NCBI GenBank assembly: GCA_027013815.1
Contig: JALWFY010000099.1
Coordinates: 1 to 40,772 of the forward strand
DNA length: 40,772 bases
Reading direction: 5' to 3'
From: Desulfohalobiaceae bacterium
GTDB lineage: Bacteria > Desulfobacterota > Desulfovibrionia > Desulfovibrionales > Desulfothermaceae
Below are positions 3,112-18,857 of this stretch, one piece after another (within the stretch, counting starts at the first letter, position 1; each line of letters starts with the position of its first letter). The notes below the pieces were generated by a model. The model made no database searches. It saw only the letters and a list, made by a program, of their open reading frames with translations, and had not been told where the DNA came from. A program made the translations under genes and the position numbers.

Positions 3112-3210
3112 GGCGAAGGGCTAATGGCTAATGGCGAATGGCTCCCCTTAGCCCTCAACCCTTAGCTTTTTGCCCTTAGCCTTTTGCCATTCGCCTTTAG
3201 CCTTTTATTA
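3112..3210. repeat. Heptad repeat array, GGCTAAT/GGCGAAT type, locus 1
   Basis: This is a run of degenerate 7-nt units. The left part (3112-3142) reads GGCTAAT, GGCTAAT, GGCGAAT. The right part (3146-3206) holds the same unit inverted (CCCTTAG, CCTTTTG, CCATTCG, CCTTTAG). The two halves are complementary and could form an imperfect hairpin. The array sits between the divergent FHA and PP2C genes and must overlap or adjoin their promoters. Related arrays occur near 4111-4196 and 23027-23104. Confidence 0.85.
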
Positions 3211-4110: not shown

Positions 4111-4196
4111 AGGGCTACGAGTCCTTCCCCTTGCCCTTAGCCTTTTGTCTTTAGCCTTTCGCCTTTAGCCCTTAGCCTTCTATGCCCTTTGCCTTT
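4111..4196. repeat. Heptad repeat array, TTTAGCC type, locus 2
   Basis: From about 4134 the sequence can be cut into successive 7-nt units: CCCTTAG, CCTTTTG, TCTTTAG, CCTTTCG, CCTTTAG, CCCTTAG, CCTTCTA, TGCCCTT, TGCCTTT. GGGCTA near 4112 gives a short inverted portion. The array ends just upstream of the putative fliR promoter. An ATG at 4182 lies inside the last units and is probably not a start codon. Confidence 0.8.
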
Positions 4197-4214
4197 GATT
4201 CTCAACAAAGGAAA

Positions 4215-4230
4215 TGGCCCAGAACTTGCT
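4215..4230 (+). promoter_or_regulatory. Putative sigma-54 -24/-12 promoter of the fliR operon
   Basis: TGGCCCAGAACTTGCT matches the RpoN consensus TGGCAC-N5-TTGCA closely. It has GG at 4216-4217, exactly 10 nt, then GC at 4228-4229. The expected start of transcription is near 4241, next to the proposed fliR start codon. The site and the context (RpoN control of early flagellar genes) are good, but start mapping is absent. Confidence 0.5.
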
Positions 4231-4241
4231 GTCTCTCAGAT

Positions 4242-5018
4242 ATGGATATATTTGTGGTGAACTACGCCAAATTTTTGAGTTTTATATTGACCTTTATAAG
4301 GGTGAGCATTGTAGTCTTTTTGCTTCCTTTTTTTGGGGGTAAGGCTGCACCAAGTCTGATAAAGGCCGCTTTGTGTCTTGCTATGACAATTGGTCTCTGG
4401 CCGCACTTGTCCTTTGATCCCAAATATTTCCCTAATTCTGTATGGGGGCTCTTTATAATCGTGTTTGGGGAATTGATCTTGGGCATGGTACTCTCCCTTG
4501 CTATTAGATGTATTTTTTCTGCTGCACAAACAGCAGGACAGATAATTGGTTTTCAAATGGGTTTTTCTATGATGAATGTAGTAGATCCTCTAACAGGTAT
4601 ATCCATAGAACTTACTTCACAACTAACTTATATGGTAGCACTTTTGTTGTTTTTGTCTTTTAATGGTCATTTATTTTTACTAGCAGGTCTTGCCAAGTCC
4701 TTTGAATTGATACCCCCTGGTGCGCTTTTAATAAATCCAAAGGTCTTTCACAGTTTGGTTTATTTTTCCTCAGAGATATTTGTAATTGCAATAAAGATAG
4801 CTGCTCCAGTAATGGTTGCTGAATTACTAGTCAGTACTGGACTTGGAATAATTGCTAGGCTAGCCCCCCAGATCAATGTGTTGTTTGTAGGTTTTCCTAT
4901 AAAAATAGCAATAGGTTTTTTCTTTATGGGAGTCATGTTTGATTTAACGGCCTTTTACATAAGCCATGTAGTAAATAATATGGATGTACTATTTAAATCT
5001 CTTTTAATAGTAAAGTAA
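4242..5018 (+). CDS. fliR: Flagellar biosynthesis protein FliR
   Basis: This is 258 residues from the ATG at 4242, close to the usual FliR length of about 260. FliR is a membrane subunit of the flagellar type III export gate, working with FliP, FliQ, FlhB and FlhA. The sequence is a chain of hydrophobic segments. It contains the FliR-typical stretch AAQTAGQIIGFQMGFSMMNVVDP, given here only as a landmark (about residues 90-112), LLFLSFNGHLFLLAGL and APQINVLFVGFPIKIAIG. The gap to flhB is 15 nt, so they are cotranscribed. Start choice is uncertain. An ATG at 4182 lies in repeat DNA upstream of the likely promoter. GTG codons at 4254/4257 would fit a start after a short leader, because the predicted transcription start falls at about 4241. 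No strong ribosome-binding site is visible for any of them. fliP and fliQ are not in the window. Confidence 0.93.
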   Translation: MDIFVVNYAKFLSFILTFIRVSIVVFLLPFFGGKAAPSLIKAALCLAMTIGLWPHLSFDPKYFPNSVWGLFIIVFGELILGMVLSLAIRCIFSAAQTAGQIIGFQMGFSMMNVVDPLTGISIELTSQLTYMVALLLFLSFNGHLFLLAGLAKSFELIPPGALLINPKVFHSLVYFSSEIFVIAIKIAAPVMVAELLVSTGLGIIARLAPQINVLFVGFPIKIAIGFFFMGVMFDLTAFYISHVVNNMDVLFKSLLIVK

Positions 5019-5033
5019 ATAAGGTTTTTTATT

Positions 5034-6101
5034 ATGCCTCAAAAAGATCCAAGAAGGACTGAAAAGGCCACTCCTAGACGAAGGGAAAAAACAAGGGAAG
5101 AAGGTAATGTACCAAGGAGTGAAGAGATATCCAAGGTGGTGGTCCTGATCTCTGGAGTTATTGGACTTAGGATATTTTGTAAATTTATTTACAGGAATCT
5201 ACTTGGATTGTTTAATTTTATATTCTCTAATTTTAGAATGGATATAACAAAGAGTTCTACTTATTATTTGTTACAGTATTGTATGAAAAAACTCCTTATC
5301 CTTTTTTTGCCTGTAGTATTAATTATAGCAGTGGCAAGTTATATTGCAATACGTCTTCAGATAGGACATTTGGTAACCACTAAGGTGTTTAAGATAAAAT
5401 GGGAGACCTTCAATCCAGTTAAAAATTTGCAAAATAGACTTATGTCGCTTAGGACAGTTGTTGAGATTTCAAAAAATAGTTTTCAAGTATTGTTAGTTGG
5501 AATCGTTGCATATTTTGCAATAAAAGGACAAATGAAATATCTGCCCTCTCTTTTTTATGAAAATATATATGGGATTATCACTAATATGTTGTTGATTATC
5601 TATAAAGTGGCATGGATGTTATTTGTTCCACTTATAATTATAGCGATCATGCATCTGTTTTATACTAGATGGGATTATGAAGAGAATATAAAAATGACCA
5701 AACAAGAGGTAAAAGACGAACACAAACAATTATATGGCAGCCCAGAGATAAAAAGGGAACAGATGAAGAGAATGCAAAAGGTAGTTATGAGCAGGATGAT
5801 GCAGGAAGTCCCAAAGGCAGATGTGATTATTACAAATCCTACCCATCTAGCAGTAGCCCTTAGATATGATATAAAGAAGGCACCTGCACCTATGGTAGTG
5901 GCAAAAGGGGCAGGTCTTATAGCCAAGAAAATCAAAGAAATAGCACAAGAACACAATATCCCAATCAAAGAGGACAGACCTTTGGCACAGGCCTTGTATA
6001 AGAATGTAGAAGTAGGAGAAACAATTCCTGAGGAGTTTTATCAGGCAGTGGCATCAGTACTGGCCAGCTTAGAGAAATTTAGAAAAAGATATGGAAAATA
6101 A
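5034..6101 (+). CDS. flhB: Flagellar export switch protein FlhB
   Basis: FlhB, 355 residues, is the export-gate component that switches substrate class from rod/hook to filament. It has the usual basic N-terminus (EKATPRRREKTREEGNVPRSEE), four hydrophobic segments between about residues 35 and 215, and a cytoplasmic C-domain. The autocleavage motif NPTH is present at residues 268-271, followed by LAVALRYD. An AAGG ribosome-binding site lies about 9 nt before the ATG. It lies between fliR and flhA in the conserved order. The FliK protein encoded further along the window is its expected partner for the switch. Confidence 0.97.
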   Translation: MPQKDPRRTEKATPRRREKTREEGNVPRSEEISKVVVLISGVIGLRIFCKFIYRNLLGLFNFIFSNFRMDITKSSTYYLLQYCMKKLLILFLPVVLIIAVASYIAIRLQIGHLVTTKVFKIKWETFNPVKNLQNRLMSLRTVVEISKNSFQVLLVGIVAYFAIKGQMKYLPSLFYENIYGIITNMLLIIYKVAWMLFVPLIIIAIMHLFYTRWDYEENIKMTKQEVKDEHKQLYGSPEIKREQMKRMQKVVMSRMMQEVPKADVIITNPTHLAVALRYDIKKAPAPMVVAKGAGLIAKKIKEIAQEHNIPIKEDRPLAQALYKNVEVGETIPEEFYQAVASVLASLEKFRKRYGK

Positions 6102-6176
6102 AAAAGGGTTTTTGACAATCAATTGACAATAACCCTTGGTGATTTCCAAAAATTAATAAAGACGTGAGTCAAAAAT

Positions 6177-8279
6177 ATGGCAAAAGAAGCAGCTAGATTG
6201 CAATTTAATTTAACACAAATATTTAGACAAGGGGACCTACTCCTTGCAAGTGGGATTGCCCTGATCTTGTTTGTGATGTTAATCCCTTTACCTTCTATGT
6301 TTTTAGACATTATGTTGACCTTGAGTATTTCCTTTAGCATGGTGGTACTAGTGACTGCTATGTTTGTGGAATCCCCTCTGGATTTTACCGTATTTCCCTC
6401 AGTTGTGATGATTGCTACCTTATTAAGGTTGGCATTAAACGTTGCTACTACCCGTAGGATCTTGCTCTATGGCGATCAGGGATCAGCTGCTGCAGGTAAG
6501 GTTATTCAGGCGTTTGGTTTTTTTGTGGTAGGAGGAAACTATGTCATTGGTCTTGTGGTGTTTTTGATCCTGTTTGCCTTGAATAAAATGGTGATTGCAA
6601 AGGGTATGAAGAGGATTGGAGAGGTGGCAGCTAGGTTTACTTTAGATGCAATGCCAGGAAAACAAATGGCAATAGATGCAGATTTAAATGCAGGATTAAT
6701 TAGTGAACAAGAGGCAAGGGAAAGGCGTGAGGCTATTAGACGTGAGGCAGATTTCTATGGGGCAATGGATGGTGCAGGTAACTTTGTTGAAGGTGATGTA
6801 AATGCAGGGATACTCATTACCTTGATAAATATTATTGGTGGTTTTTTTATAGGAATTTTTCAAAAACATATGGACTGGGTAACTGCTGCTCAAACTTATA
6901 CTATATTGACAATAGGAGATGGGTTGGTCTCTATTATCCCCTCAATTATTATGTCTACTGCTGCTGGTTTTATTGTCACAAGGTCAGCAGATAAAGGGAG
7001 TTTGGGATATGAGTTGCTTGAACAGGTAACTATTAACTATAAGGCCCTGTTTATGGTGGCAGGGGTATTGGGAATTTTTGGTATGGTACCTGGATTACCT
7101 ACAGTTCCCTTTTTTCTATTGGCTGGCCTAATCTCTGTGTTAGGTGTGTTGTCTAAGAGACATGCATCTATGATAAGCTTACAGGACGAGGTCAAGGAAG
7201 AAGAAAAAGAAAAAATAGAGACACCAGAAGAGGTCAAATCACTCTTACCTTTGGACATACTTTCCCTTGAAATAGGATATGGGCTTATTCCCTTAGTTGA
7301 TGAAAACCAGGATGGGAATCTCCTCACAAGGATTCGTTCAATAAGGAGACAGATAGCCCTTGAGATGGGGGTAGTGATTCCTTCTATGCACGTTAGGGAT
7401 AATTTAAATCTTAAACCAAACCAATACGTTGTTCAAATTAAAGGGAATCCTGTTGCAAGCGCTGAGGTATTACCTGATCATTATCTTGCAATGGACCCTG
7501 GAAGTGCAAAGAAGAAAATCAAAGGGATCCAGACAAGGGAACCTGCATTTAATCTCCCAGCAATGTGGATAACAGAAGAACAAAAAGAAGAGGCCATATT
7601 GGCTGGATATACAGTAGTAGACCCAGCTACTGTCATAGCTACCCATTTAACTGAGATCTTTAAAAGGTATTTGCATGAATTTATTGGACGTCAGGAGACC
7701 CAAGACCTACTAGATACCCTGGCAAAACGTGCTCCAAAGGCAGTTGAAGACCTTGTGCCAGGGATACTTTCCCTTGGAGTTGTGCAAAAGGTGCTTCAAA
7801 ATCTTGTCAAAGAAGGGGTATCTATTAGGGATATGTTGACCATTGTGGAAACCCTAGCAGACTATGGTATGTCAACTAAAGATCCTGATCAATTAACAGA
7901 GTTTGTGAGGCAAAGGCTAGCCAGGACCGTTGTGACTCCGTATCTTGGAGAGTCTAATACATTATGGGTGATTTCCCTTGATCCAGCCCTGGAAAATCTC
8001 ATCCAAGAACATTTAAGACAGACAGAAACAGGTACTTATTATCTGTCTATGTCACCCCAACTTGCCCAGAAGATAATAAATGCCATATCTGATACCTTTG
8101 AAAAGGTTGAGGTAAAAGACGGTCATCCTGTGTTACTCACAGGGATACAAATAAGGCCTCACCTTGCAAAGCTAGTTACCAGGTTTATACCCCTACTCCC
8201 AGTTATTTCCCATGGAGAGATACCGCCAGATATAAAACTTGAATCTATTGGAATAGTGAGGTTGAATAATGCAAATTAA
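6177..8279 (+). CDS. flhA: Flagellar biosynthesis protein FlhA
   Basis: FlhA, 700 residues, forms the nonameric ring of the flagellar export gate and binds export chaperones with its cytoplasmic domain. The N-terminal half contains about eight membrane segments and the conserved FHIPEP-family loop (GEVAARFTLDAMPGKQMAID, about residues 146-165). The C-terminal cytoplasmic domain starts near residue 340 and contains the expected PAMWITEEQ and VVTPYL landmarks. Full length with no gaps. It follows flhB after 75 nt and overlaps flhF by 11 nt, so translation of flhF is probably coupled. Confidence 0.98.
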   Translation: MAKEAARLQFNLTQIFRQGDLLLASGIALILFVMLIPLPSMFLDIMLTLSISFSMVVLVTAMFVESPLDFTVFPSVVMIATLLRLALNVATTRRILLYGDQGSAAAGKVIQAFGFFVVGGNYVIGLVVFLILFALNKMVIAKGMKRIGEVAARFTLDAMPGKQMAIDADLNAGLISEQEARERREAIRREADFYGAMDGAGNFVEGDVNAGILITLINIIGGFFIGIFQKHMDWVTAAQTYTILTIGDGLVSIIPSIIMSTAAGFIVTRSADKGSLGYELLEQVTINYKALFMVAGVLGIFGMVPGLPTVPFFLLAGLISVLGVLSKRHASMISLQDEVKEEEKEKIETPEEVKSLLPLDILSLEIGYGLIPLVDENQDGNLLTRIRSIRRQIALEMGVVIPSMHVRDNLNLKPNQYVVQIKGNPVASAEVLPDHYLAMDPGSAKKKIKGIQTREPAFNLPAMWITEEQKEEAILAGYTVVDPATVIATHLTEIFKRYLHEFIGRQETQDLLDTLAKRAPKAVEDLVPGILSLGVVQKVLQNLVKEGVSIRDMLTIVETLADYGMSTKDPDQLTEFVRQRLARTVVTPYLGESNTLWVISLDPALENLIQEHLRQTETGTYYLSMSPQLAQKIINAISDTFEKVEVKDGHPVLLTGIQIRPHLAKLVTRFIPLLPVISHGEIPPDIKLESIGIVRLNNAN

Positions 8280-9327
8280 AACCTTTAAAGGCTATTCTAC
8301 CCATGAAGCCTTAAAAAGGATCAAGAAGGAAATGGGGGAGAGTGCTATTATCTTAAATAGTAGAAGTGAAGAAGTGAATGGAAAAAAGATATATACTATA
8401 ATGGCAGCCAGGGACTTAGGGGTGGAACAAGACAAGCAAGAGCAGGAAAAGAGGGCTATTGATAATGTTGAAAATAATGAGGTAGAAGAGAGGTGGTATC
8501 AGGAATGGAAGTATTTTAAAGAACAAATCTATTCATTGATCAAAGATTCTTTGGATATTCCCTCCCTGTCATCTAGGCAGAAGACAGCCATCAGACACCT
8601 GGAAATGGAAGGGGTGGGCCAGGATTTTATAATGAACCTCCTAGTCCTATTAAAGAGGAATGGAAGGTCTTTTATGAATATATTGAATAATATGATTAAG
8701 GTTATTCCATTTGATAGCCCAAAGTTCTCTGATAATTGTCACATTATGGTGGGACCACATGGGGTTGGAAAGACCGCCACTATATTAAAGCTTGCCTTGA
8801 AATACAAGAGGGAAAATAAGGGAGCCAGGATATGTCTAGTGAATGTAGATGGTTATCAGGGAAAGGGCAAGTTACTTTTAAAACACTATGCAGAACTTTC
8901 GGATTTTGAGTATAAGGAGATACATGGTTTAAAAGATGTAGCTGCCTTGCTCAGTGAAGCAAGTGAGTACGATAGGATATTTATAGATACCCCAGGTCTA
9001 AAAAGGGGCATGCATCTTGATTTGTGGTGGGAGAACTCACCTTTGAAATTAATAGAAAATTGTCATGTACACCTCGTGCTCAGCCCTGTGTATTCTAGGG
9101 AACAGGTGGATTATTATCTGTCTATGTTTTTATGTGACAGGCTATCTAGTCTTATATGGACAAAATTAGACGAGGCATGTATTTATGGAACCATGTTATA
9201 TACGGGATTTACGACCCAAATACCAATTTCTCTTTTTACTTATGGCGCTACTTTGAAGAATTCCATAGTGGTAGCAAGTGGACCTCTGTTGTGGAATCTG
9301 GTGTTTAAACACAAACTGCCATGTTAA
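8269..9327 (+). CDS. flhF: Flagellar biosynthesis GTPase FlhF
   Basis: FlhF is an SRP-family GTPase that marks the site of flagellar assembly, often the cell pole. It is 352 residues. The start MQIKTFKGYSTHEALKRIKKE is typical of FlhF. The NG domain carries a P-loop GPHGVGKT (162-169), a G2-like NVDGYQ region, G3 DTPGL (usually DTAGR) and G4 TKLDEA. The final region has LFTYGATL where LTNGQ-type signatures are common. These are mild deviations within the family. It overlaps flhA by 11 nt. Its usual regulator FlhG is the next gene. Confidence 0.95.
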   Translation: MQIKTFKGYSTHEALKRIKKEMGESAIILNSRSEEVNGKKIYTIMAARDLGVEQDKQEQEKRAIDNVENNEVEERWYQEWKYFKEQIYSLIKDSLDIPSLSSRQKTAIRHLEMEGVGQDFIMNLLVLLKRNGRSFMNILNNMIKVIPFDSPKFSDNCHIMVGPHGVGKTATILKLALKYKRENKGARICLVNVDGYQGKGKLLLKHYAELSDFEYKEIHGLKDVAALLSEASEYDRIFIDTPGLKRGMHLDLWWENSPLKLIENCHVHLVLSPVYSREQVDYYLSMFLCDRLSSLIWTKLDEACIYGTMLYTGFTTQIPISLFTYGATLKNSIVVASGPLLWNLVFKHKLPC

Positions 9328-9438
9328 TTACAATATTTACCTATTTCCTATTTGCCCTTTGTTTTTTGACAAACTTAGATTAAAGACTAAAATTAATTAA
9401 TGGCCCTTTTTAATATATCTCTATAAGTGATTTTCCCA

Positions 9439-9480: not shown

Positions 9481-10341
9481 GTGAATTACCAGTATGCTTA
9501 TTCATCTTCTGAAAACAATCTTCCCTTAAATGGTCCTGTGGTGTGTAGTATAACGTCAGGAAAGGGAGGCGTTGGAAAGACCAATCTATCCGTTAATATT
9601 GCGTATTTACTTGGCCAAAAAGGCTACAAGACCATGTTGTTGGATGCAGATCTAGGACTGGGGAATGTGGACGTGTTGCTTGGGCTCAACCCAAGATTTA
9701 ATATATTCCATTTGTTGTCCAATGAGGTAAAATTAAAGAATATTATCTATAAGACCAAATATAATTTTAATATCCTGCCAGCCCCCTCAGGTGTGTGCGA
9801 TTTACTCTCTCTTTCCCCTGGTCAGAAACTTGAATTCTTAGAGGCCATGGATTCCTTAGAAGACGAAGTAGACTTTTTTTTAGTGGATACAGGGGCAGGT
9901 ATAAATGATAATGTGTTATATTTTAATATGGCTGCCCAACATAGGATAATAGTCTTGACACCTGAGCCTACCTCACTCACAGATAGTTATGCCTTGATTA
10001 AGGTCTTGCATTTAGATCATAAAATCAATAAGTTTTATATTATAGTCAATCTTTGCAGGGATTATAAAAATGCAAAGGATACCTTTAAAAGACTCTACCT
10101 TGCTTGTGATCATTTTCTAAAGGGTGTATCTTTGAATCTCTTGGGATATGTGCCAAGGGATATGAATGTGAGGCATTCAGTAACAGAGCAGGTCCCCTTT
10201 TGTTATAGGTATCCTGATACCTTGGCTACAAAGAGTTTAAAATCTATAGTAACTAATTTAGAGACCTTTAAAAATTATAAGATGGAGCTTGATGGCAACA
10301 TTAAATTCTTTTGGAAAAAACTCCTATTCCTCGGGCAATAG
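9481..10341 (+). CDS. flhG: MinD-like flagellar number regulator FlhG (FleN/YlxH)
   Basis: FlhG, 286 residues, is a MinD/ParA-type ATPase that limits flagellar number and stimulates the FlhF GTPase. The deviant Walker A is KGGVGKT at residues 28-34. It is followed by DADLGLGNVDVLLG (switch I), FLVDTGAGI and TPEPTSLTDSYALIK, all FlhG signatures. The start is a GTG at 9481 with AAGGAGG at 9466-9472. The first 20 residues, before VCSITSGKGG, resemble the short activation region that binds FlhF. The end overlaps fliA by 50 nt. Confidence 0.96.
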   Translation: MNYQYAYSSSENNLPLNGPVVCSITSGKGGVGKTNLSVNIAYLLGQKGYKTMLLDADLGLGNVDVLLGLNPRFNIFHLLSNEVKLKNIIYKTKYNFNILPAPSGVCDLLSLSPGQKLEFLEAMDSLEDEVDFFLVDTGAGINDNVLYFNMAAQHRIIVLTPEPTSLTDSYALIKVLHLDHKINKFYIIVNLCRDYKNAKDTFKRLYLACDHFLKGVSLNLLGYVPRDMNVRHSVTEQVPFCYRYPDTLATKSLKSIVTNLETFKNYKMELDGNIKFFWKKLLFLGQ

Positions 10342-11068
10342 TAAAATATCTGATTATTTAAGAGGAATATCCAAATGGAAAGAGATAGATAAGTCTTCTC
10401 AGGAAGAGATAATAAAGTCCCTTATTACCAAGGTGAAGATTATTGCCCATAGGATGAAAAACAAGCTTCCCTCTATCATAGAACTAGAAGATCTTATTTC
10501 TGCTGGGTGTGTTGGACTGATGGAGGGGCTTTCTAATTTTGATCCTTCACATAATGTAAAACTTGAGACATTTGTAGAAAACCGTATTAAAGGGGCAATG
10601 TTAGATGAATTGAGACGACAGGATTGGTTAAGCAGGGGATTTAGAAAAAATATCAAAATAGTTGAACTGGCCAAAAGGACATTAGAACAAAAGGTTGGTA
10701 GAGAACCCAATTTAGATGAAATTATAGAAGAAACAGGATTAAAACCCACGGAGGTAGAACATTGCCTTGAGATAATAAACAATAATTTATTAGTAGAATT
10801 AGATGTCATTAGTCAACTCCAGAGTTATAATGGACCAACAAATGGCCCTTTTGATATTTTGGTCAAAAAGGAATTTGTGTCTAGACTTAGTCAATATATT
10901 AATCAACTTACAGAAAAAGAACAGTTGGTCTTGTCCCTGTATTATGTGGAAGAACTCACTATGAAAGAAATAGCCGAGACATTGGATATTAGTGAGGGAA
11001 GGGTGTCTCAGCTACATTCTCAGGCAATAAAAAAGCTTAAGATAAGGATGAAGGATATAGAGGAATAG
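10292..11068 (+). CDS. fliA: RNA polymerase sigma factor FliA (sigma-28)
   Basis: FliA directs transcription of late flagellar, motility and chemotaxis genes. The protein is 258 residues. It contains region 2 (ELEDLISAGCVGLMEGLSNFD and FVENRIKGAMLDELRRQDWLSR, the latter a hallmark of the FliA/SigD group), region 3 (KVGREPNLDEIIEETGL), and region 4 with the helix-turn-helix LTMKEIAETLDISEGRVSQLHSQA. I chose the ATG at 10292 because GGAG sits 4 nt before it; a TTG immediately before is possible. It lies inside the end of flhG (50-nt overlap), so expression is coupled with FlhG. Confidence 0.97.
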   Translation: MATLNSFGKNSYSSGNSKISDYLRGISKWKEIDKSSQEEIIKSLITKVKIIAHRMKNKLPSIIELEDLISAGCVGLMEGLSNFDPSHNVKLETFVENRIKGAMLDELRRQDWLSRGFRKNIKIVELAKRTLEQKVGREPNLDEIIEETGLKPTEVEHCLEIINNNLLVELDVISQLQSYNGPTNGPFDILVKKEFVSRLSQYINQLTEKEQLVLSLYYVEELTMKEIAETLDISEGRVSQLHSQAIKKLKIRMKDIEE

Positions 11069-11069
11069 C

Positions 11070-11789
11070 ATGGCAGATAAAGAAAAGGAACTGGTTGAAT
11101 TAGATGCAAAAGAAGTGGATTCTGATATAGAGAAAGAGGGAGTGGATATTGATTCAAATACCCCTAAGCCAAAAGAGGAGCAAAAAGTTGAACTGGATCT
11201 AGACGATGCCCCTTTTTTGGAAGAAGAGGAGGATGAAGAAAAAGAACCAGAAAAAGAAGAAAAAGTAGATGAAGAAATAGAGGAGGAAAAGGAGACAGAG
11301 GAGGAAAAAGAAGAACCTCCTAAAAAAAAGAAAAAAATAATACTTATTGCTATAATAGCCCTTGTAGGCTTGCTTTGTGTTGCCCTGATTTTTTTCTTTA
11401 TAAGAGGGGGAAAGAAAGAGGAAGAAAAGAAAAAATTACCTCCAAAATCAGTTGCTGTAAAAGAAAAACCCCCTCCTCCTAAACCAAAGACATTTCAGTT
11501 GGCACTGCGTCCATTTTGGATAGATTATAAAATTAAAAATGGGCATAGATATCTACACCTTAGCTTGCTTGTGGAATATACAGATGGGAGATTGAATTGG
11601 GAGTTCAGGAGAAAGGGGATAGTGATTAGAGATGCAATTTATTATTATTTAAAAAACAAGGATTTTAGTTTTTTTCTAGACAAAAGGAATCTTTCTGTTT
11701 TAAAAAAAGAAATAATGACTATAATAGATCAGTATCTAGTTTATGGTAAGATAAAAAGGATATATTTACAAAACTATTTAATTGAATAG
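11070..11789 (+). CDS. FliL-like flagellar basal body-associated protein
   Basis: The protein has 239 residues. Residues 1-88 are extremely acidic and low complexity (Glu/Asp/Lys). A single membrane helix follows at about 90-112 (IILIAIIALVGLLCVALIFFF), then a Pro/Lys linker, then a C-terminal domain (about 140-239). That domain shows the FliL pattern: HLSLLVEYTDGRLNWEFRRKGIVIRDAI, then LKKEIMTIIDQYLVYGKIKRIYLQNYLIE. FliL surrounds the stator/MS-ring region and affects motor torque. The long acidic cytoplasmic tail is unusual for FliL. It starts 1 nt after fliA stops. The fold call is by pattern only. Confidence 0.75.
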   Translation: MADKEKELVELDAKEVDSDIEKEGVDIDSNTPKPKEEQKVELDLDDAPFLEEEEDEEKEPEKEEKVDEEIEEEKETEEEKEEPPKKKKKIILIAIIALVGLLCVALIFFFIRGGKKEEEKKKLPPKSVAVKEKPPPPKPKTFQLALRPFWIDYKIKNGHRYLHLSLLVEYTDGRLNWEFRRKGIVIRDAIYYYLKNKDFSFFLDKRNLSVLKKEIMTIIDQYLVYGKIKRIYLQNYLIE

Positions 11790-11804
11790 GTAAAATGGTG
11801 GATT

Positions 11805-12119
11805 ATGCCTGGGAACTTTGATTTTTCAGTCCTTATATCCCAGGTCCCTAGGGTACAAAAGATACATGGAGATATTCAACAGGCTCCACTCTCTAATCAA
11901 GAGAGCCTCCAAAGAGAGGTTGAAAAAAAACAGGAAAGAGAACATTCTGAGGTGGAATCTTCTTCCAAGGGCAGTGGATCTGATAAAGTTGGGGATAGTG
12001 GAGAAAAGGGGGGTAGTCGGGGACAAGGGGATAATAAAAGGAGAAAAGGAAAAGAAGAACAAGAGCAGGGTGTTAAAGCTGGATCAACGGGTGGTCATCT
12101 AATAGATATAGAGGTTTAG
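11805..12119 (+). CDS. Small charged hypothetical protein in flagellar operon
   Basis: I do not recognise this family. It has 104 residues and no membrane segment or signal peptide. The first 30 residues (MPGNFDFSVLISQVPRVQKI) look structured. The middle is a Gly/Ser/Glu/Lys-rich, probably disordered stretch. The protein ends with the short hydrophobic motif HLIDIEV. It lies 15 nt after the FliL-like gene and 7 nt before the next gene, so it is part of the operon. The overall design (short N- and C-terminal motifs joined by a flexible linker) suggests a small adaptor for flagellar assembly, but that is inference. Confidence 0.7.
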   Translation: MPGNFDFSVLISQVPRVQKIHGDIQQAPLSNQESLQREVEKKQEREHSEVESSSKGSGSDKVGDSGEKGGSRGQGDNKRRKGKEEQEQGVKAGSTGGHLIDIEV

Positions 12120-12126
12120 GGGGAGA

Positions 12127-12546
12127 ATGGATACTTCTAGTTGGATATTGGTTTTTTCAAGTGTGGTTGAGATTATATTGTTGGTAGTGGTTATAGTGCT
12201 ATTTCAACGGTTAAAGCGTTCAGAAGATTTTATTTTAAGGCTAAAAAAATCTCAAAAAGAACTTTTAGACAAATTGTCATTTAACGCCCAAATAGAAAAA
12301 GAATTAGTTAGAAGTTTTGAAGAGAGACAGAGGGAGCTTAGTGTACTGGATTCCAAACTGTCAGAAAAGATAAAACATGTAGAATCTTTGATAAAACAAA
12401 TAAATGAATTTTCATCTTCCCCAAAGGTACTTAGGGAGATAATCTTAAAGGGGCATGGAAGGGGTGAATCTAAGGAGGCCTTGAGCAAAAGGACAGGGCT
12501 TAGCATGGAAGAAATAGAATGGATCCTTGAACAGGAAGAGCTATGA
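12127..12546 (+). CDS. DUF2802-like membrane-anchored coiled-coil protein
   Basis: This is a 139-residue protein with a strong ribosome-binding site (AGGGGGAG) before its ATG. It has an N-terminal membrane anchor (about residues 6-27), a long charged coiled-coil region (about 28-100), and a small C-terminal helical module (GESKEALSKRTGLSMEEIEWILEQ) resembling a winged or helix-turn-helix tip. This layout matches DUF2802 proteins, which are repeatedly found next to flagellar fliA/flhF clusters in Proteobacteria. Function is unknown. It overlaps the next gene by 4 nt (ATGA). Confidence 0.75.
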   Translation: MDTSSWILVFSSVVEIILLVVVIVLFQRLKRSEDFILRLKKSQKELLDKLSFNAQIEKELVRSFEERQRELSVLDSKLSEKIKHVESLIKQINEFSSSPKVLREIILKGHGRGESKEALSKRTGLSMEEIEWILEQEEL

Positions 12547-12836
12547 GGGTTAATCGCAGACAAAGGTCTTCAAACCTGATCTATTTTTCTCCAGATGATG
12601 AACGAGTCAGTAAATTTAGAAAAAGGTTCAAAGTGGGGGACAAAATAAAGGCAAAAATATTAGAAATAATTGGCGAAAATCGCGCTATTATTTTAGTAGA
12701 CGGCGTAAAACTTATAGCCTATTTAAAGGAACATCTTTCAAGCGGAGGTGTTATTTACCTGGAAGTAAAACAATTATATCCCCATATTATCCTAAAACAA
12801 TCTAAAGAGAATAAGGGACTTAGTTTATATATTTGA
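12543..12836 (+). CDS. Small beta-rich protein, possibly a detached FliK-like N-terminal module
   Basis: There are 97 residues with no membrane segment. The core (about residues 28-85) reads FKVGDKIKAKILEI...RAIILVDGVKLIAYLKEHLSSGGVIYLEVKQLYPHIILK. This is a beta-barrel-like pattern seen in the middle of some FliK-type hook-length proteins and flagellar-operon hypotheticals. It overlaps the preceding gene by 4 nt and is 3 nt from dus. True fliK, with the C-terminal domain, lies about 1.9 kb downstream, so a functional link is possible. No enzyme motif is visible. Confidence 0.65.
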   Translation: MRVNRRQRSSNLIYFSPDDERVSKFRKRFKVGDKIKAKILEIIGENRAIILVDGVKLIAYLKEHLSSGGVIYLEVKQLYPHIILKQSKENKGLSLYI

Positions 12837-12839
12837 AGT

Positions 12840-13802
12840 ATGCCTGATTTTTTAATCTCACCTAAAAATCCCTGGCTTGCTCCCCTTGCAGGTTTTAGTG
12901 ACTTACCTTTTAGGCTTTTATGTAGAAAGTATGGATGTGATGTGGCTGAAACTGAGATGGTGAGTGCAAAGGGTCTATTCTACAACCTTGAACAAAATCT
13001 AAAATATATTTCCACCACAAAAGAGGACAATCCTTTAATAGTACAGATCTTTGGTAGTGATGCAAAGATTATTAGACGAGCAGTTGAGAATCTAAGGGAT
13101 CGTGGCTATAGATATTTTGATTTAAATGCAGGATGTCCAGTTAAAAAGGTCACAAAGACAGGGGCAGGTGCAGCACTTTTAAAAGATGTCTTGAATCTAG
13201 CACACATTCTAGAAGAAATGGCGTATGTTGCAGGTAGCAAAAATATAGGAGTAAAAATAAGGTTGGGATGGAATAGTGATAGCCTTGTTTATTTAGAAAT
13301 AGGACGTATAGTTGAAAGATTGGATATTGGTTGGCTGACCCTTCATCCAAGATATGCAAAACAGGGTTTTTCTGGACATGCAAATTGGGATTATATAAAG
13401 GAATTAAAGGAATATATAAATGTCCCTATTATAGCTAGTGGTGATTTGTTTACTCCAGAAGATGGGATAAAGTGTATTGAATATACTGGGGCGGATTCTT
13501 TGATGTTCGCTAGGGGCGCATTGAAAAATCCTGTGATATTTGCGCAATATAAAGGGTGTTATAAAAATAGATCAATTAGTGATCTAAATGGATATGAAAG
13601 GATACAGCTCATTAGAGATCATATGGATCTTATTAGAAAGTATGGAGGAGAAAAGAACCCTTTTTTTAAGATGAGGGGTATACTCAGTAGATATATTAGA
13701 GGATATTATAGGTCTAAGTTTTTTCGGGAAAAGGCAGTTAAGGTATCTTCATGGGAAGATATTGAATCTTTAATCCACTTGTTGGAGGAAGAAGTTAGAT
13801 GA
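12840..13802 (+). CDS. dus: tRNA-dihydrouridine synthase (Dus family)
   Basis: This 320-residue FMN enzyme reduces uridine to dihydrouridine in the tRNA D-loop. The N-terminal TIM barrel begins with PWLAPLAGFSDLPFR. The catalytic cysteine is C99 in NAGCPVKKVTKTGAGAALL. FMN/phosphate contacts include VKIRLGW, LTLHPRYAKQGFSGHANW, PIIASGDL and GADSLMFARGAL. The C-terminal helical tRNA-binding domain follows from about residue 245. The NAGCPxxKV form is DusB-like. The start follows the previous stop by 3 nt and lacks a strong ribosome-binding site, so translation is likely coupled. It overlaps ispH by 4 nt. Confidence 0.95.
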   Translation: MPDFLISPKNPWLAPLAGFSDLPFRLLCRKYGCDVAETEMVSAKGLFYNLEQNLKYISTTKEDNPLIVQIFGSDAKIIRRAVENLRDRGYRYFDLNAGCPVKKVTKTGAGAALLKDVLNLAHILEEMAYVAGSKNIGVKIRLGWNSDSLVYLEIGRIVERLDIGWLTLHPRYAKQGFSGHANWDYIKELKEYINVPIIASGDLFTPEDGIKCIEYTGADSLMFARGALKNPVIFAQYKGCYKNRSISDLNGYERIQLIRDHMDLIRKYGGEKNPFFKMRGILSRYIRGYYRSKFFREKAVKVSSWEDIESLIHLLEEEVR

Positions 13803-14653
13803 GAATAATTCGAGGGAAGAGGGCAGGATTTTGTATGGGAGTAGCCTTGGCTTTAAAGAAATTAGATCAAGCCATAAAGAGATATAGAGATTATAAAAAA
13901 ATATATACTTTTGGTCCTATTATTCATAATCCACAGGTCATTAATTTGTATAGAGAAAAAGGGGTAATCCCTACTGAGAATATATCTATAATTCAGCCTG
14001 GAGATGTGGTCATAATAAGGGCCCATGGAGTGCCAGTGCAAGAATACAAGAAAATAGAGGATAGGAGAGCACATATAATAGATGCCACTTGTCCAAAGGT
14101 AAAAAAGGCACAAAAATTAATAGAAGATTATTCAAAAGATGCCACCTTGCTTTTGTTTGGAGAAAAAGATCATCCAGAGGTAAAGGGGTTACTCAGCCAT
14201 GCCCAAGGTAAAGGTCTGGTTTTTTCTTCTATTAATGAACTAATGTCCGTAGAATTAGATAAAAATCAAAGATATTTTCTGGCATCTCAAACTACCCAGG
14301 ATAGGGAGGAATTTTCAAAAATAGTAGAATTTTTGTTAAGGGAGTTTGGGAAAAATTTTCCCATTCTGGATACCATTTGTGATGCCACAAGACTTAGGCA
14401 ACAAGAGGCTATAGATATTGCCAAAAAGAGTGATATAGTTATTGTAATTGGTGGATATAACAGTGGAAACACAAGGCGACTAGCTCAGGTGGTGCAGGGG
14501 GTTGGTAGGGTATATTATCACATCGAGACGTTGAGGGATTTGCCTAAAGAGGTATTAAAAGGAGCTGAAACCATAGGGATTACAGCAGGTGCCTCTACCC
14601 CTGATTACCTAATAGATGAGGTAGAACATGCTATCTTGGATCTAAGTAATTAA
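13799..14653 (+). CDS. ispH: 4-hydroxy-3-methylbut-2-enyl diphosphate reductase IspH
   Basis: IspH catalyses the last step of the methylerythritol phosphate pathway, making IPP and DMAPP. The protein is 284 residues. The three iron-sulfur ligands are C12 (GFCMG), C98 (DATCPKV) and C194 (DTICDATRLRQ). The active-site histidines are H43 (GPIIHNPQV), H76 (RAHGVP) and H125 (EKDHPEVKG). SQTTQ and GGYNSGNTRRL are also conserved. The start overlaps dus by 4 nt. Housekeeping dus-ispH sits between two blocks of flagellar genes on the same strand. Confidence 0.98.
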   Translation: MRIIRGKRAGFCMGVALALKKLDQAIKRYRDYKKIYTFGPIIHNPQVINLYREKGVIPTENISIIQPGDVVIIRAHGVPVQEYKKIEDRRAHIIDATCPKVKKAQKLIEDYSKDATLLLFGEKDHPEVKGLLSHAQGKGLVFSSINELMSVELDKNQRYFLASQTTQDREEFSKIVEFLLREFGKNFPILDTICDATRLRQQEAIDIAKKSDIVIVIGGYNSGNTRRLAQVVQGVGRVYYHIETLRDLPKEVLKGAETIGITAGASTPDYLIDEVEHAILDLSN

Positions 14654-14657
14654 TTTT

Positions 14658-14705
14658 TCTCCTCCTTGTGGCATGTTATTTGATAGTAGATACACAAGGA
14701 GGAGA
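14658..14705 (+). promoter_or_regulatory. Perfect 13-bp inverted repeat occluding the fliK ribosome-binding site
   Basis: TCTCCTCCTTGTG (14658-14670) is exactly complementary to CACAAGGAGGAGA (14693-14705), with a 22-nt loop. The right arm contains the whole AAGGAGGAG Shine-Dalgarno sequence of fliK, whose ATG is at 14708. In a read-through RNA from ispH the ribosome-binding site would be base-paired. No T-tract follows, so it is not a typical intrinsic terminator. Confidence 0.75.
14669..14684 (+). promoter_or_regulatory. Putative sigma-54 -24/-12 element in the loop upstream of fliK
   Basis: TGGCATGTTATTTGAT has a good -24 half (TGGCAT, GG at 14670-14671). The -12 half is TTGAT where TTGCA is the consensus, with correct 10-nt spacing. 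Predicted transcription start is near 14695, inside the right arm of the inverted repeat. A transcript from here would lack the left arm. The GG-to-AAGGAGG distance is 26 nt, the same as at flhG. Confidence 0.35.
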
Positions 14706-14707
14706 TT

Positions 14708-16300
14708 ATGAAATTTTTTCCTACCAATATAAATTTAAATATCCTTTCTAAAAAAGGACCTCAACTTCTAAAGTCAAATAAAGGTGTAATAAAATGTCCA
14801 TTTGATAATATATTAAATTTAATTGTGAATGGGCATGTAAAATTAACCCCCCTTTCATCTAATAAAGATAATAACAAAGGATCCTCTGAGGGATCTCTAT
14901 TAATACTGACCTTGCTCGTTATAAGACTTGTGGATGCCAATAAGTTATCGTCTTTAAAATTGAATATGAAAAATAACAAGGGTAATAAGCTAGAGATGTC
15001 CTTGATGGAGATTTTTAAACAAAATAAAAGCATTGATATGATTTTAAATGGGTTCAATAAACTTATACAACACTCTCCAAGGGCCCGGCAGCTAGTAGAA
15101 AAACTATCCAATTTATTAAAAAAACAAGACCCTAAATTTCAAAAGAGACTTAATAATCTTATTGAAAGAGATCTAATGAATATTAAATATAGCAACAAAA
15201 AATCCATTAAAGATATAAATCTATCTGATTTAGCTAAAGTGAATTTAGAACCACGATTATTAAAAAAAGAAAATAATAATATACATTTTAAATTATTACA
15301 AAACATAGAATTTGAATCACTACAAAACATAAAACATATATTAAATGACATAGATCAATATATTAGAGAACATTATTCTACCAAAGAATTAAAGAATATA
15401 AAGAAATTGATAGACAAATTAATTAATGAATTTAATCAGAACAAAGATATTATATCTACTGATTTAGAAAAGGCAAAAATTGATATAAAAAATGGTATAA
15501 AGGATAATGGATGTGAAAAAATAAATAAAGAAAATAAAAAATTTTTTAATAATATGATTGATTTAAAAAATTATAGTGAGCAACACAATATAAAAGTCTA
15601 TCGTATAATGGATAAGAATTTTGTGAACACAAATAAATCTTTAAATAAGGTTATGGATAAAAATATTGGCAATAAATTTTCAAATAAAAATACATCTGAT
15701 TCTAATAATACACCCCATGACAAAGACACAGTCATAAAAAAACAGGATATAAATATTAAATATTTTGAAGATAACATATTAAACAATATGTTAAATAATA
15801 AAGTACAGGATTTTAATTTAGAGATGCCAAGACTGAAGTTTAGGGATCAGGTATTGGAACAAATACAAAATGGGATATTGAGGAATCTAGGAGAAGGGAA
15901 AAGAGAGATCTCCCTTAGACTTCGTCCTCCTGAGCTAGGTGCTATGAAGATCATACTTCAAGTACAGGGCAAGGATGTGTCTGTGGTAATAAGGACAGAG
16001 AATCATGAGGTGGCAAATACTTTAAACCAACATATTGCCAATTTTGAAAAATCCTTGGAACATCAAGGTCTTAAATTAGTAAGGATTGAGGTTAGAAATG
16101 ACCTAGGGGGTGGACATGAGAATAGCTGGGCAGGGTTTCATGGTTTTAAAGGAGATCCAAATAATCAGGGTTCAAAGAGGCGTGGAAGGAGTTTTTTTAA
16201 ATTGGATATGATTGGTGAAAGAGATATCGAGGGTTTGGAAGCAAGGGGTGTTGGAAGGAATAATTTTCTGACCAAGAATGGTTTATATGTAGTAGCTTAA
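14708..16300 (+). CDS. fliK: Flagellar hook-length control protein FliK
   Basis: FliK is the exported molecular ruler that sets hook length and triggers the FlhB specificity switch. It has 530 residues. The C-terminal Flg_hook domain spans about 372-470 and contains the signature ISLRLRPPELGAMKI followed by VVIRTENHEVANTLNQHI. Residues about 60-365 are rich in Asn, Lys, Ile and Asp, with strongly A-rich codons compared with the ordered C-domain. They are presumably the flexible ruler part. The ribosome-binding site AAGGAGGAG lies in one arm of a 13-bp inverted repeat. flgD follows after 15 nt. Confidence 0.93.
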   Translation: MKFFPTNINLNILSKKGPQLLKSNKGVIKCPFDNILNLIVNGHVKLTPLSSNKDNNKGSSEGSLLILTLLVIRLVDANKLSSLKLNMKNNKGNKLEMSLMEIFKQNKSIDMILNGFNKLIQHSPRARQLVEKLSNLLKKQDPKFQKRLNNLIERDLMNIKYSNKKSIKDINLSDLAKVNLEPRLLKKENNNIHFKLLQNIEFESLQNIKHILNDIDQYIREHYSTKELKNIKKLIDKLINEFNQNKDIISTDLEKAKIDIKNGIKDNGCEKINKENKKFFNNMIDLKNYSEQHNIKVYRIMDKNFVNTNKSLNKVMDKNIGNKFSNKNTSDSNNTPHDKDTVIKKQDINIKYFEDNILNNMLNNKVQDFNLEMPRLKFRDQVLEQIQNGILRNLGEGKREISLRLRPPELGAMKIILQVQGKDVSVVIRTENHEVANTLNQHIANFEKSLEHQGLKLVRIEVRNDLGGGHENSWAGFHGFKGDPNNQGSKRRGRSFFKLDMIGERDIEGLEARGVGRNNFLTKNGLYVVA

Positions 16301-16315
16301 AGGAGGAGAAGAACC

Positions 16316-17017
16316 GTGAATTTGGGTTATATAGGAAAAGACCAACTACTAGGAAGGGCAGAGACAGATTTTAAAAAGGAAGAGAAACACACAGGGACCC
16401 AGAGTAAATTGGGAAGGGATGCATTTTTGAAATTATTGGTTACTCAACTTAAATATCAGGATCCAACTAGTCCTATGGACGATAAAGAGATGACTGCACA
16501 GCTAGCACAGTTTAGTAGCCTGGAATCTTTAAATAATATAGATAAGGGGATAGAAGATATTTCTTCTAAACTCGATGATAAGTCTATTTTTTCAGGAATA
16601 AATTTTCTCAATACAGAGATAAAGGCCCCAGGTCATGAAATTTCCAAACAAGGGAAAGATATTTCCAATGTTACTTATACATTAAAAGGAGATACAGCCA
16701 GGACTTATGTGAATATCTTTGATCAGTCAGGAAATATATTGAATACTGTGGAACTAGGGCCCAAAAAGGCAGGTTCTTATAGTTTTACTTGGGATGGAAA
16801 GGATTTTAATGGGAATAAGGCACCAGATGGGAAATACGTAGTTTCCTTTGGAGGAGAAGACAAAAATGGTAAATCAGTGCTTATTGATACTCAGGTGTAT
16901 GGGAAGGTAGTCGCTATAACTAAACGGGATAATAATATATATCTTAGACTGGCTGATGGAAGAGAGATAGCTATGGATCAGGTATCTGATGTAAGCACGT
17001 CAGATAATCATCAATAA
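16316..17017 (+). CDS. flgD: Flagellar hook assembly (capping) protein FlgD
   Basis: FlgD caps the growing hook and is needed to polymerise FlgE. It has 233 residues. The start is a GTG with AAAGGAGGAG upstream. The conserved N-terminal export/assembly region reads LGRDAFLKLLVTQLKYQDPTSPMDDKEMTAQLAQFSSLESL (about residues 32-72). The C-terminal part is a FlgD Ig-like/tudor pair with YSFTWDGKDFNGNKAPDGKYVV. It lies between fliK and flgE, the normal hook-operon order. Confidence 0.97.
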   Translation: MNLGYIGKDQLLGRAETDFKKEEKHTGTQSKLGRDAFLKLLVTQLKYQDPTSPMDDKEMTAQLAQFSSLESLNNIDKGIEDISSKLDDKSIFSGINFLNTEIKAPGHEISKQGKDISNVTYTLKGDTARTYVNIFDQSGNILNTVELGPKKAGSYSFTWDGKDFNGNKAPDGKYVVSFGGEDKNGKSVLIDTQVYGKVVAITKRDNNIYLRLADGREIAMDQVSDVSTSDNHQ

Positions 17018-17037: not shown

Positions 17038-18684
17038 ATGTCTTTGGGAGGAGCCTTATATTCTGGTACCAGTGGACTCAAGGTACATGGAGAAAAGATG
17101 AATGTAATAGGCAATAATCTTGCCAATGTGAGTACTATAGGGTTTAAAGCAAGTAGGATGGATTTTGAGGATGCATTATATCAATCAGTTACTACAGCCT
17201 CTGGTGCGGATCAAGTAGGGAGGGGCGCTGCTATAGGAACGATTCTAACTGATTTTTCTCAAGGATCTATGGAATCTACAAATGTATCCACTGACCTGGC
17301 TATTGGAGGAAAGGGTTTTTTTATAGTTTCTCCAAAGGGAGAAGATTTGGAATATTATACCAGGGCAGGGAATTTCAGATTTGATAAAGAGGGTTATTTG
17401 GTGGATCCCCATGGATATGTGTTGCAAGGTTGGCGAGTTGAATCTGAGAACAAGGCCCAGGCTGCATCAAGTACTTCATCTGCGAGTCAAGCAGGGACCT
17501 CTGTTCGTACAGTGGGTTCTTATGGAGATATAAGATTAGAGAATTTTCAATCTCCACCCCAGGCTACTCAATATGTTCAGATTATAGCCAATCTGAATTC
17601 ACAGAGTGAAGACAAGGCAGTGAGTTCAACAGATCCTTTTTTCTCCATGTATTCTTACTGGGACTCTAATTCTTCCAAGCCCCTAGGAGACAACTTATAT
17701 TCTTATCAAACTACTTTAAAGGTATATGATGAAAACGGTTCTCCCCATGACCTTACAATATATTTTGACAAGGTAGATAGTCATGCAACAAATACTACTT
17801 CAGGATACCAATATTGGGAATATATGGTCACTGTGCCCCCTGATGATGACAACAGGCTTTTTTGGCAAAATGCTACCGACACGACCAAAAAAGGTGTTCT
17901 TATGATAGGAAACTTGACCTTTGATAGTTCAGGACATCTAATAAGACAGTCTGCCTTTACTATAAAGGACAATGACACTACTACTCCTGATACCATTGAT
18001 TTAACAGATCCCAATAATCCAGGAGACTTGTCTAATTGGCAACCAGCGGACTTTAATATAGAAGGTTATCCAATACTCACTGCAAATTTTTTGGGGAATG
18101 CTGGGGCTGATGCCACTAATATGACCAATGCAAAGAATGTAGCTATAGACTTTGGTGCCTATAGCCAGTCACTTAGTTGGCAAAATGCCCCTGCTAATGC
18201 CAGTGTAATTGGTACTGATGCCAGTCAGCTACCAACGTTTGGAGACATGAAGAGTGGGGCACTTTCTGTTACTAGTTATAGTAGCCCTTCAACTACTTAT
18301 ACACAATCGCAAGATGGTTATCCTGCAGGAGACCTTGAGTCCATAGCAGTGAGTAGGGATGGGGTTATTACAGGACATTATTCCAATGGGCAGGTATTAG
18401 AACTTTATGCCCTTACCCTGGCAAATTTCAATAATACAGAAGGATTGAGACGGGAAGGAGGAAATTTATTCATAGAAACAAGGGATTCAGGTACTGCTTT
18501 AACTGGGCTCCCTGGCGCAGCAGGTCTTGGTACGATTTCTTCTAATTCATTGGAGCAATCTAACGTTGATATGGCTGAGGAATTTGTAAAGATGATAACT
18601 ACCCAAAAGGGTTTTCAAGCAAATAGCCGTACCATTACCACAACAAATAGCCTGTTAGATGAGGTTATAAGGCTTATAAGATAG
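17038..18684 (+). CDS. flgE: Flagellar hook protein FlgE
   Basis: FlgE forms the curved universal joint between rod and filament. It has 548 residues with a good ribosome-binding site (AAAAAGGAGG). The N-terminal rod/hook domain is typical (LYSGTSGLKVHGEKMNVIGNNLANVSTIGFK). The C-terminal D0 helix region ends LEQSNVDMAEEFVKMITTQKGFQANSRTITTTNSLLDEVIRLIR. Central residues about 130-430 are the variable surface domains, longer than in the E. coli protein (about 400 residues). It is last in the fliK-flgD-flgE unit. No clear intrinsic terminator follows it. Confidence 0.97.
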   Translation: MSLGGALYSGTSGLKVHGEKMNVIGNNLANVSTIGFKASRMDFEDALYQSVTTASGADQVGRGAAIGTILTDFSQGSMESTNVSTDLAIGGKGFFIVSPKGEDLEYYTRAGNFRFDKEGYLVDPHGYVLQGWRVESENKAQAASSTSSASQAGTSVRTVGSYGDIRLENFQSPPQATQYVQIIANLNSQSEDKAVSSTDPFFSMYSYWDSNSSKPLGDNLYSYQTTLKVYDENGSPHDLTIYFDKVDSHATNTTSGYQYWEYMVTVPPDDDNRLFWQNATDTTKKGVLMIGNLTFDSSGHLIRQSAFTIKDNDTTTPDTIDLTDPNNPGDLSNWQPADFNIEGYPILTANFLGNAGADATNMTNAKNVAIDFGAYSQSLSWQNAPANASVIGTDASQLPTFGDMKSGALSVTSYSSPSTTYTQSQDGYPAGDLESIAVSRDGVITGHYSNGQVLELYALTLANFNNTEGLRREGGNLFIETRDSGTALTGLPGAAGLGTISSNSLEQSNVDMAEEFVKMITTQKGFQANSRTITTTNSLLDEVIRLIR

Positions 18685-18805: not shown

Positions 18806-18815
18806 TTAAAATTTT

Positions 18816-18857
18816 AAAAAGTTCCCAATCAAGTTCCTGGTTGGGAACTTTTTATTT
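18816..18857 (+). terminator. Rho-independent terminator after tRNA-Arg
   Basis: AAAAAGTTCCCAA (18816-18828) is perfectly complementary to TTGGGAACTTTTT (18841-18853), with a 12-nt loop and a T-rich 3' side. It ends the tRNA-Arg transcript. Because the stem is symmetrical with A-runs upstream it could also work from the other strand. Confidence 0.85.

Follow-up and report, generated by a model that had tools for sequence, protein, structure and literature searches.

A putative translational lock on read-through RNA before the flagellar gene fliK of a Desulfohalobiaceae bacterium, with a sigma-54-like promoter predicted to start inside the Shine-Dalgarno arm

The window analysed here is a 40,772-nucleotide stretch of DNA from a Desulfohalobiaceae bacterium, and the genes described below are all transcribed from its + strand. 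All genes from fliR through ispH are co-directional and upstream of fliK. The leftmost of these, predicted from open reading frames (ORFs) and Pfam matches, are fliR, flhB, flhA and flhF (4182–9327). They are followed by a packed run of flhG-like, fliA-like sigma factor and fliL-like genes, three small ORFs, dus and ispH (9481–14653; ORFs and Pfam), with gaps of no more than 15 nt from flhG to ispH. The last gene of the run is ispH (LytB; 13799–14653; Pfam LYTB, 7.6e-83), and fliK, encoding the hook-length control protein, lies at 14708–16300 (Pfam Flg_hook, 5.2e-18). To its right are flgD (16316–17017) and flgE (17038–18684), both assigned by Pfam and presumed to belong to the fliK operon. 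After flgE and a tRNA-Arg gene there is a terminator-like 14-bp hairpin followed by T-rich DNA (18815–18854, + strand), where the transcription unit likely ends. A PP2C-like gene is flanked by degenerate tandem repeats of 7 bp (CCCTTAG, GCCTTTA), located at 3119–3202 and 4133–4196, and the second set directly precedes fliR.

The 153-nt gap before flhG contains a strong sigma-70-like site (TTGACA-16-TAAAAT, 11/12; 9366–9393, + strand) that is a candidate promoter of the operon reading into fliK. A scan of the + strand found no terminator-like site between ispH and fliK. The close packing from flhG to ispH makes this run the likely source of read-through, such that fliK would receive RNA from an early flagellar operon that includes two housekeeping genes. 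The preliminary description of the locus had traced the incoming RNA to housekeeping transcription of dus and ispH; both genes are indeed included, but the main source appears to be the early flagellar operon and not just housekeeping transcription. One congener (G003) has the same upstream gene order over the part that its contig covers.

The region between ispH and fliK contains a perfect 13-bp inverted repeat (13/13 positions complementary), here called hairpin A (+ strand). It consists of a left arm, TCTCCTCCTTGTG, at 14658–14670, beginning 4 nt after the ispH stop codon, a 22-nt loop at 14671–14692, and a right arm, CACAAGGAGGAGA, at 14693–14705. The fliK Shine-Dalgarno (SD) sequence AAGGAGG (14696–14702) is entirely inside the right arm and 5 nt 5′ of the ATG at 14708, with the left arm as its anti-SD partner; the 13-bp hairpin over the fliK ribosome-binding site (RBS) proposed in the preliminary description is thus confirmed in its position. 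The 101-nt stretch with hairpin A has a predicted folding energy of -26.2 kcal/mol (z = -4.3), and none of 200 shuffles is equally stable. Two perfect repeats in the window combine arms of ≥13 nt with a loop of ≤40 nt (hairpin A and the hairpin after flgE), and ten runs of a first-order Markov simulation gave one in total. The predicted cost of opening the fliK SD is 21.1 kcal/mol, compared with a mean of 2.1±1.7 (sd) and a maximum of 5.2 kcal/mol for the 26 other genes of the window. Predicted folding also agrees with the proposal that a long read-through RNA, holding both arms, would bury the SD, as in locks of the phage T4 gene e and Bacillus subtilis sigG type. A search of Rfam assigns hairpin A to no known RNA family, its three matches all being at chance level.

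A sigma-54-like promoter, TGGCATGTTATTTGAT (TGGCAT-GTTAT-TTGAT; 14669–14684, + strand), is present upstream of the SD. It has the GG-N10-GA arrangement with correct spacing, and the -12 box has A where the consensus has C. The -24 box shares T14669 and G14670 with the left arm of hairpin A, so that the element, earlier placed in the loop, is there but is not confined to the loop. The predicted transcription start is 14695±1, 12 nt past the -12 position, and falls inside the right arm; RNA made from it would not contain the left arm, in line with the earlier suggestion of a transcript starting near 14695. The pattern TGGYAYN5YTGMW matches the genome at 78 sites and the reversed pattern at 13, indicating that sigma-54-type sites are enriched, and RpoN (PF04552) is encoded in 4/4 genomes of the genus. 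No FlbD-like enhancer site (GGCA-N4-TGCC, with up to one mismatch) was found near fliK.

The promoter match is unremarkable by itself, and it is its fixed place before fliK that makes it more than chance: the joint pattern of -24 box, -12 box and fliK start is found in 35 of 348 Desulfovibrionales genomes, with 0 control matches. A set identified independently through flgD has the same element at approximately -41 from the fliK ATG, mostly with TTGA at -12. Across the order, the fliK promoter most often occurs without the left arm of hairpin A. This conservation argues that the promoter and its ~13–16-nt leader are ancestral, whatever the upstream content, and on this comparison the sigma-54-like promoter at its fixed distance from fliK is older than the hairpin A pairing. 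Nearly every fliK promoter of the order that was found independently has TTGA in place of the usual TTGC at -12, which suggests a weak or specialised promoter.

The short RNA from 14695 is predicted to form a second structure, hairpin B (14697–14722, + strand; -9.5 kcal/mol), in which 14697–14707 pair with 14712–14722, the SD pairs with fliK codons 2–5, and an AUGA loop holds the start codon. The predicted cost of opening the SD in the short RNA of the window is 8–9 kcal/mol, and the early expectation that this RNA would be freely translated is not supported. In all four species of the genus the long RNA is costlier to open than the short RNA (long/short: 20.4/8.2 in G000, 20.0/6.2 in G001, 15.0/8.1 in G002 and 17.3/3.8 kcal/mol in G003), with a predicted gap of 7–14 kcal/mol; the G002 excess varies with the stretch folded (10.6 vs 8.1, or 15.0 vs 8.1) and falls short of significance in the comparison with shuffles (p 0.11). 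By these predicted costs the SD is strongly hidden in the long RNA and mildly structured in the short RNA, in place of a contrast between hidden and freely translated. The T-run at the start of fliK (14714–14722; MKFFP, MQFFP, MQIFP), which takes part in hairpin B, is TTTTTTCC or ATTTTTCC in relatives, and TTT and ATT are kept even in genomes of 55–69% GC, which often favour TTC and ATC. TTT is used throughout this run across the order (product of TTT fractions 2.6e-6); A/U-rich gene starts are common, and the bias is given no weight for that reason.

The arrangement of ispH, hairpin and fliK is shared by three congeners, with arms CCCTCCTTGTGGCAT and GCAAGGAGGG, ACCTCCTTGTGGCAT and CACAAGGAGGT, and ATCCCTCCTTGTGGCAC and ACAAGGAGGGAT, forming ~10–12 pairs compared with 13 in the window. 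Complementarity, the loss of which in close relatives had been named at the outset as evidence against the lock, is thus kept in all three, with compensatory changes. The core CCTCCTTG/CAAGGAGG is invariant in the four species, and the spacing of the arms varies by at least 2 nt. The three outermost pairs are altered on both sides with pairing kept, except for one mismatch in G003 (pair +1: U-A, C-G, A-U, C-G; pair +2: C-G, U-A, mismatch in G003, U-A; pair +3: U-A, U-A, U-G, A-U); G001 has a mismatch at -9. In the four-sequence alignment 95.8% of cells are paired in register and at most 66.7% when one arm is slid, and with these four sequences shuffles equal the score in 20/500 cases and the both-side-changed pairs in 108/500. 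The ispH product of the window shares 68% identity with that of G002 and 63% with that of G003, which argues that retention of the arms is not due to recency. Compensatory change, as looked for in a lock of the T4 gene e or sigG type, is seen at three pairs in a small sample of four species, and with four sequences we regard the covariation support as good, not overwhelming. Nothing comparable to the fliK hairpin was found at the other sigma-54-like sites examined in the genus genomes, and the hairpin is on this ground rejected as a general feature of sigma-54 genes in these genomes. The ispH, flgD and rpoN matches of G001 contain stop codons, reflecting either a poor assembly or decayed genes, yet its hairpin is perfect over 12 bp.

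Other genera of the order have hairpins of similar form built from different sequences. A read-through-only hairpin in G341 is formed by CTCTCCTTGGCAC and GTGCCAAGGAGA, its left arm consisting of the -24 box and bases upstream of it, and the variant hairpin of G345 has a left arm of the same origin. The -24 box TTGGCAC is itself part of the anti-SD arm in these two genomes, paired with GTGCCAAGGAG. The left arm derives from bases upstream of -24 in G036 and from the -12/+1 spacer in G016, G044, G050, G054 and others; all left arms of other genera are upstream of the predicted +1. When upstream regions are swapped between genera the native region buries the SD more (genus medians, p = 0.019; p = 0.035 without the window's genus). 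Genera g8 and g14 have no such hairpin and go in the opposite direction in this test, ruling out that every fliK of the order has one. Among 13 genera, excess burial is smaller the farther away the closest co-directional upstream gene lies (rho -0.57, p = 0.04; p = 0.12 when the window's genus is left out), a correlation that is exploratory because the upstream ORF distances were picked by hand from ORF lists. At this exploratory level, a number of other genera have similar hairpins, mostly those with a co-directional gene close upstream. A broader proposal, which we offer tentatively and consider possible but doubtful, is that read-through-only fliK hairpins have arisen repeatedly and independently across the order near such genes, with the sigma-54 start in the SD arm and the left arm taken from the -24 box or the -12/+1 spacer. 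If this were true, the promoter from which an RNA originates would set flagellar order at the level of translation.

Several other roles for the repeat have to be considered. In translational coupling, ribosomes finishing ispH would disrupt the left arm, fliK on read-through RNA would be translated solely in step with ispH, and the hairpin would act to block independent initiation at fliK and not to silence read-through. The left arm begins 4 nt past the ispH stop in the window, and in the congeners the distance is no more than ~10 nt; the footprint of a terminating ribosome usually spans such distances. However, the arm is wholly 3′ of the stop codon, so that no ribosome translates through it, the 54 nt from the ispH stop to the fliK start are long for reinitiation, and such hairpins also precede fliK where the upstream gene is different and farther away; we regard coupling as unlikely, while allowing it some weight. 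That hairpin A terminates or attenuates the ispH operon, together with the T-run of the first fliK codons, is improbable. The stable stem is followed by TTTTTT at 14714–14719, and the T-run persists throughout the order with TTT even where TTC is usual, but it begins 8 nt past the base of the stem and not directly after it, it is equally present in genera that have no hairpin at all, and the + strand scan detected no terminator at hairpin A. An intrinsic terminator is rejected by this geometry and the negative scans.

The arms could alternatively matter as DNA, as two half-sites bound by a regulator on either side of the sigma-54 promoter, with the RNA pairing incidental. Invariance of CCTCCTTG and CAAGGAGG in four species would fit, although constraint is expected in any case on the right half, which is the SD, and on the left half, which adjoins the -24 box; moreover, the outer positions change yet stay complementary, the arm spacing differs by 2 nt or more, and other genera have different left arms at other places, making half-sites quite improbable. 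Chance is a very poor candidate in our judgement, even though TTGG-type -24 boxes tend to pair with CCAAGGAG-type SD regions, weak hairpins are frequent and g8 and g14 have none: a functionless arm arising from partial complementarity of the -24 box and the SD accounts badly for 13 pairs in the window and ~10–12 in the congeners, for covariation outside both promoter and SD, and for an SD opening cost that is an outlier among all genes of the window. SD-sequestering hairpins are the common form of RNA thermometers; melting of the pairing by heat, opening the SD, had been raised as a possibility in the preliminary description. The SD of the long RNA has a predicted unpaired probability of 0.000 at 37°C, rising only to 0.003 at 70°C, so that it stays closed even at the higher temperature, and Rfam gives no thermometer match. 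An RNA thermometer is rejected by this predicted melting behaviour, and we consider it extremely unlikely.

We conclude that the repeat is probably a cis-acting translational lock, active solely on read-through RNA. The proposal draws on arms, a promoter-like element, gene order, conservation and covariation read from the sequence, and on predicted folds, energies and start site; read-through, repression and the purpose of the lock we infer from these. The RNA of the flhG-fliA-...-dus-ispH run would enter fliK with both arms, fold hairpin A and bury the SD. Sigma-54 RNA polymerase would start at ~14695, inside the right arm, giving an RNA in which hairpin A is impossible. This short RNA would be translated better than the long RNA but still not freely, given the weaker pairing of its SD with the beginning of the gene in hairpin B. 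Synthesis of the hook-length protein would in this way be tied to the sigma-54 stage of flagellar assembly, despite an early operon that runs into fliK. A point against the lock is that a ribosome terminating at ispH would overlap the left arm in part and could delay folding.

The mechanism is known in kind and new at this place; we found no relevant report of an RBS hairpin at fliK in the open-access literature. RNA that comes into IS10/Tn10 from outside forms a fold covering the start of the transposase gene, and its translation is poor. This fold of an incoming RNA over a gene start resembles that predicted at fliK, but IS10/Tn10 is a mobile element with an unrelated promoter type and fliK is a flagellar gene. 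In phage T4 the long early RNA of gene e, soc, 49 and I-TevI forms a hairpin sequestering the RBS, RNA from a later promoter, situated in the 5′ strand of this hairpin, is unable to fold it, and lysozyme synthesis is reportedly cut 100-fold by the hairpin (PMC3014915, PMC2988022). Predicted for fliK, as in gene e, are an RBS hairpin of the long RNA and a later promoter in its 5′ strand. The two differ in that gene e uses a phage late sigma whereas fliK is a bacterial flagellar gene with a sigma-54-like promoter, and in that the fliK short RNA keeps a second, weaker predicted hairpin. In Bacillus subtilis sigG a large hairpin is proposed to block the spoIIG read-through RNA and is unable to form in the PsigG RNA, and the short RNA has a second, small hairpin at the RBS that lowers translation 2–4-fold (PMC5942855). 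The two-hairpin logic within a sigma-factor cascade would be common to sigG and fliK, although sigG belongs to sporulation with a sigma-F/G promoter, and its small hairpin lies in the leader whereas that of fliK forms with coding sequence. A further comparison is the Desulfovibrio vulgaris operon DVU1445–DVU1443, which we take to be fliK-flgD-flgE. It is listed as a flagellar sigma-54 operon, the flagellar operons of D. vulgaris being under sigma-54 and an FlbD-like activator with the motif tGGcacg / tTGCt, and the available parts of these sources describe no RBS hairpin (PMC4641369, PMC3333781). Compared with D. vulgaris, the window lacks an FlbD-like site near fliK, and its -12 box reads TTGA.

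Early bacterial operons often run into later genes, and a lock responding to where an RNA has its 5′ end would keep the order without a terminator. A case in the sigma-54 flagellar cascade, with compensatory change, would suggest that the device is more general than phages and spores. Further cases can be sought by scanning for promoters whose start site falls within an arm that carries an SD.
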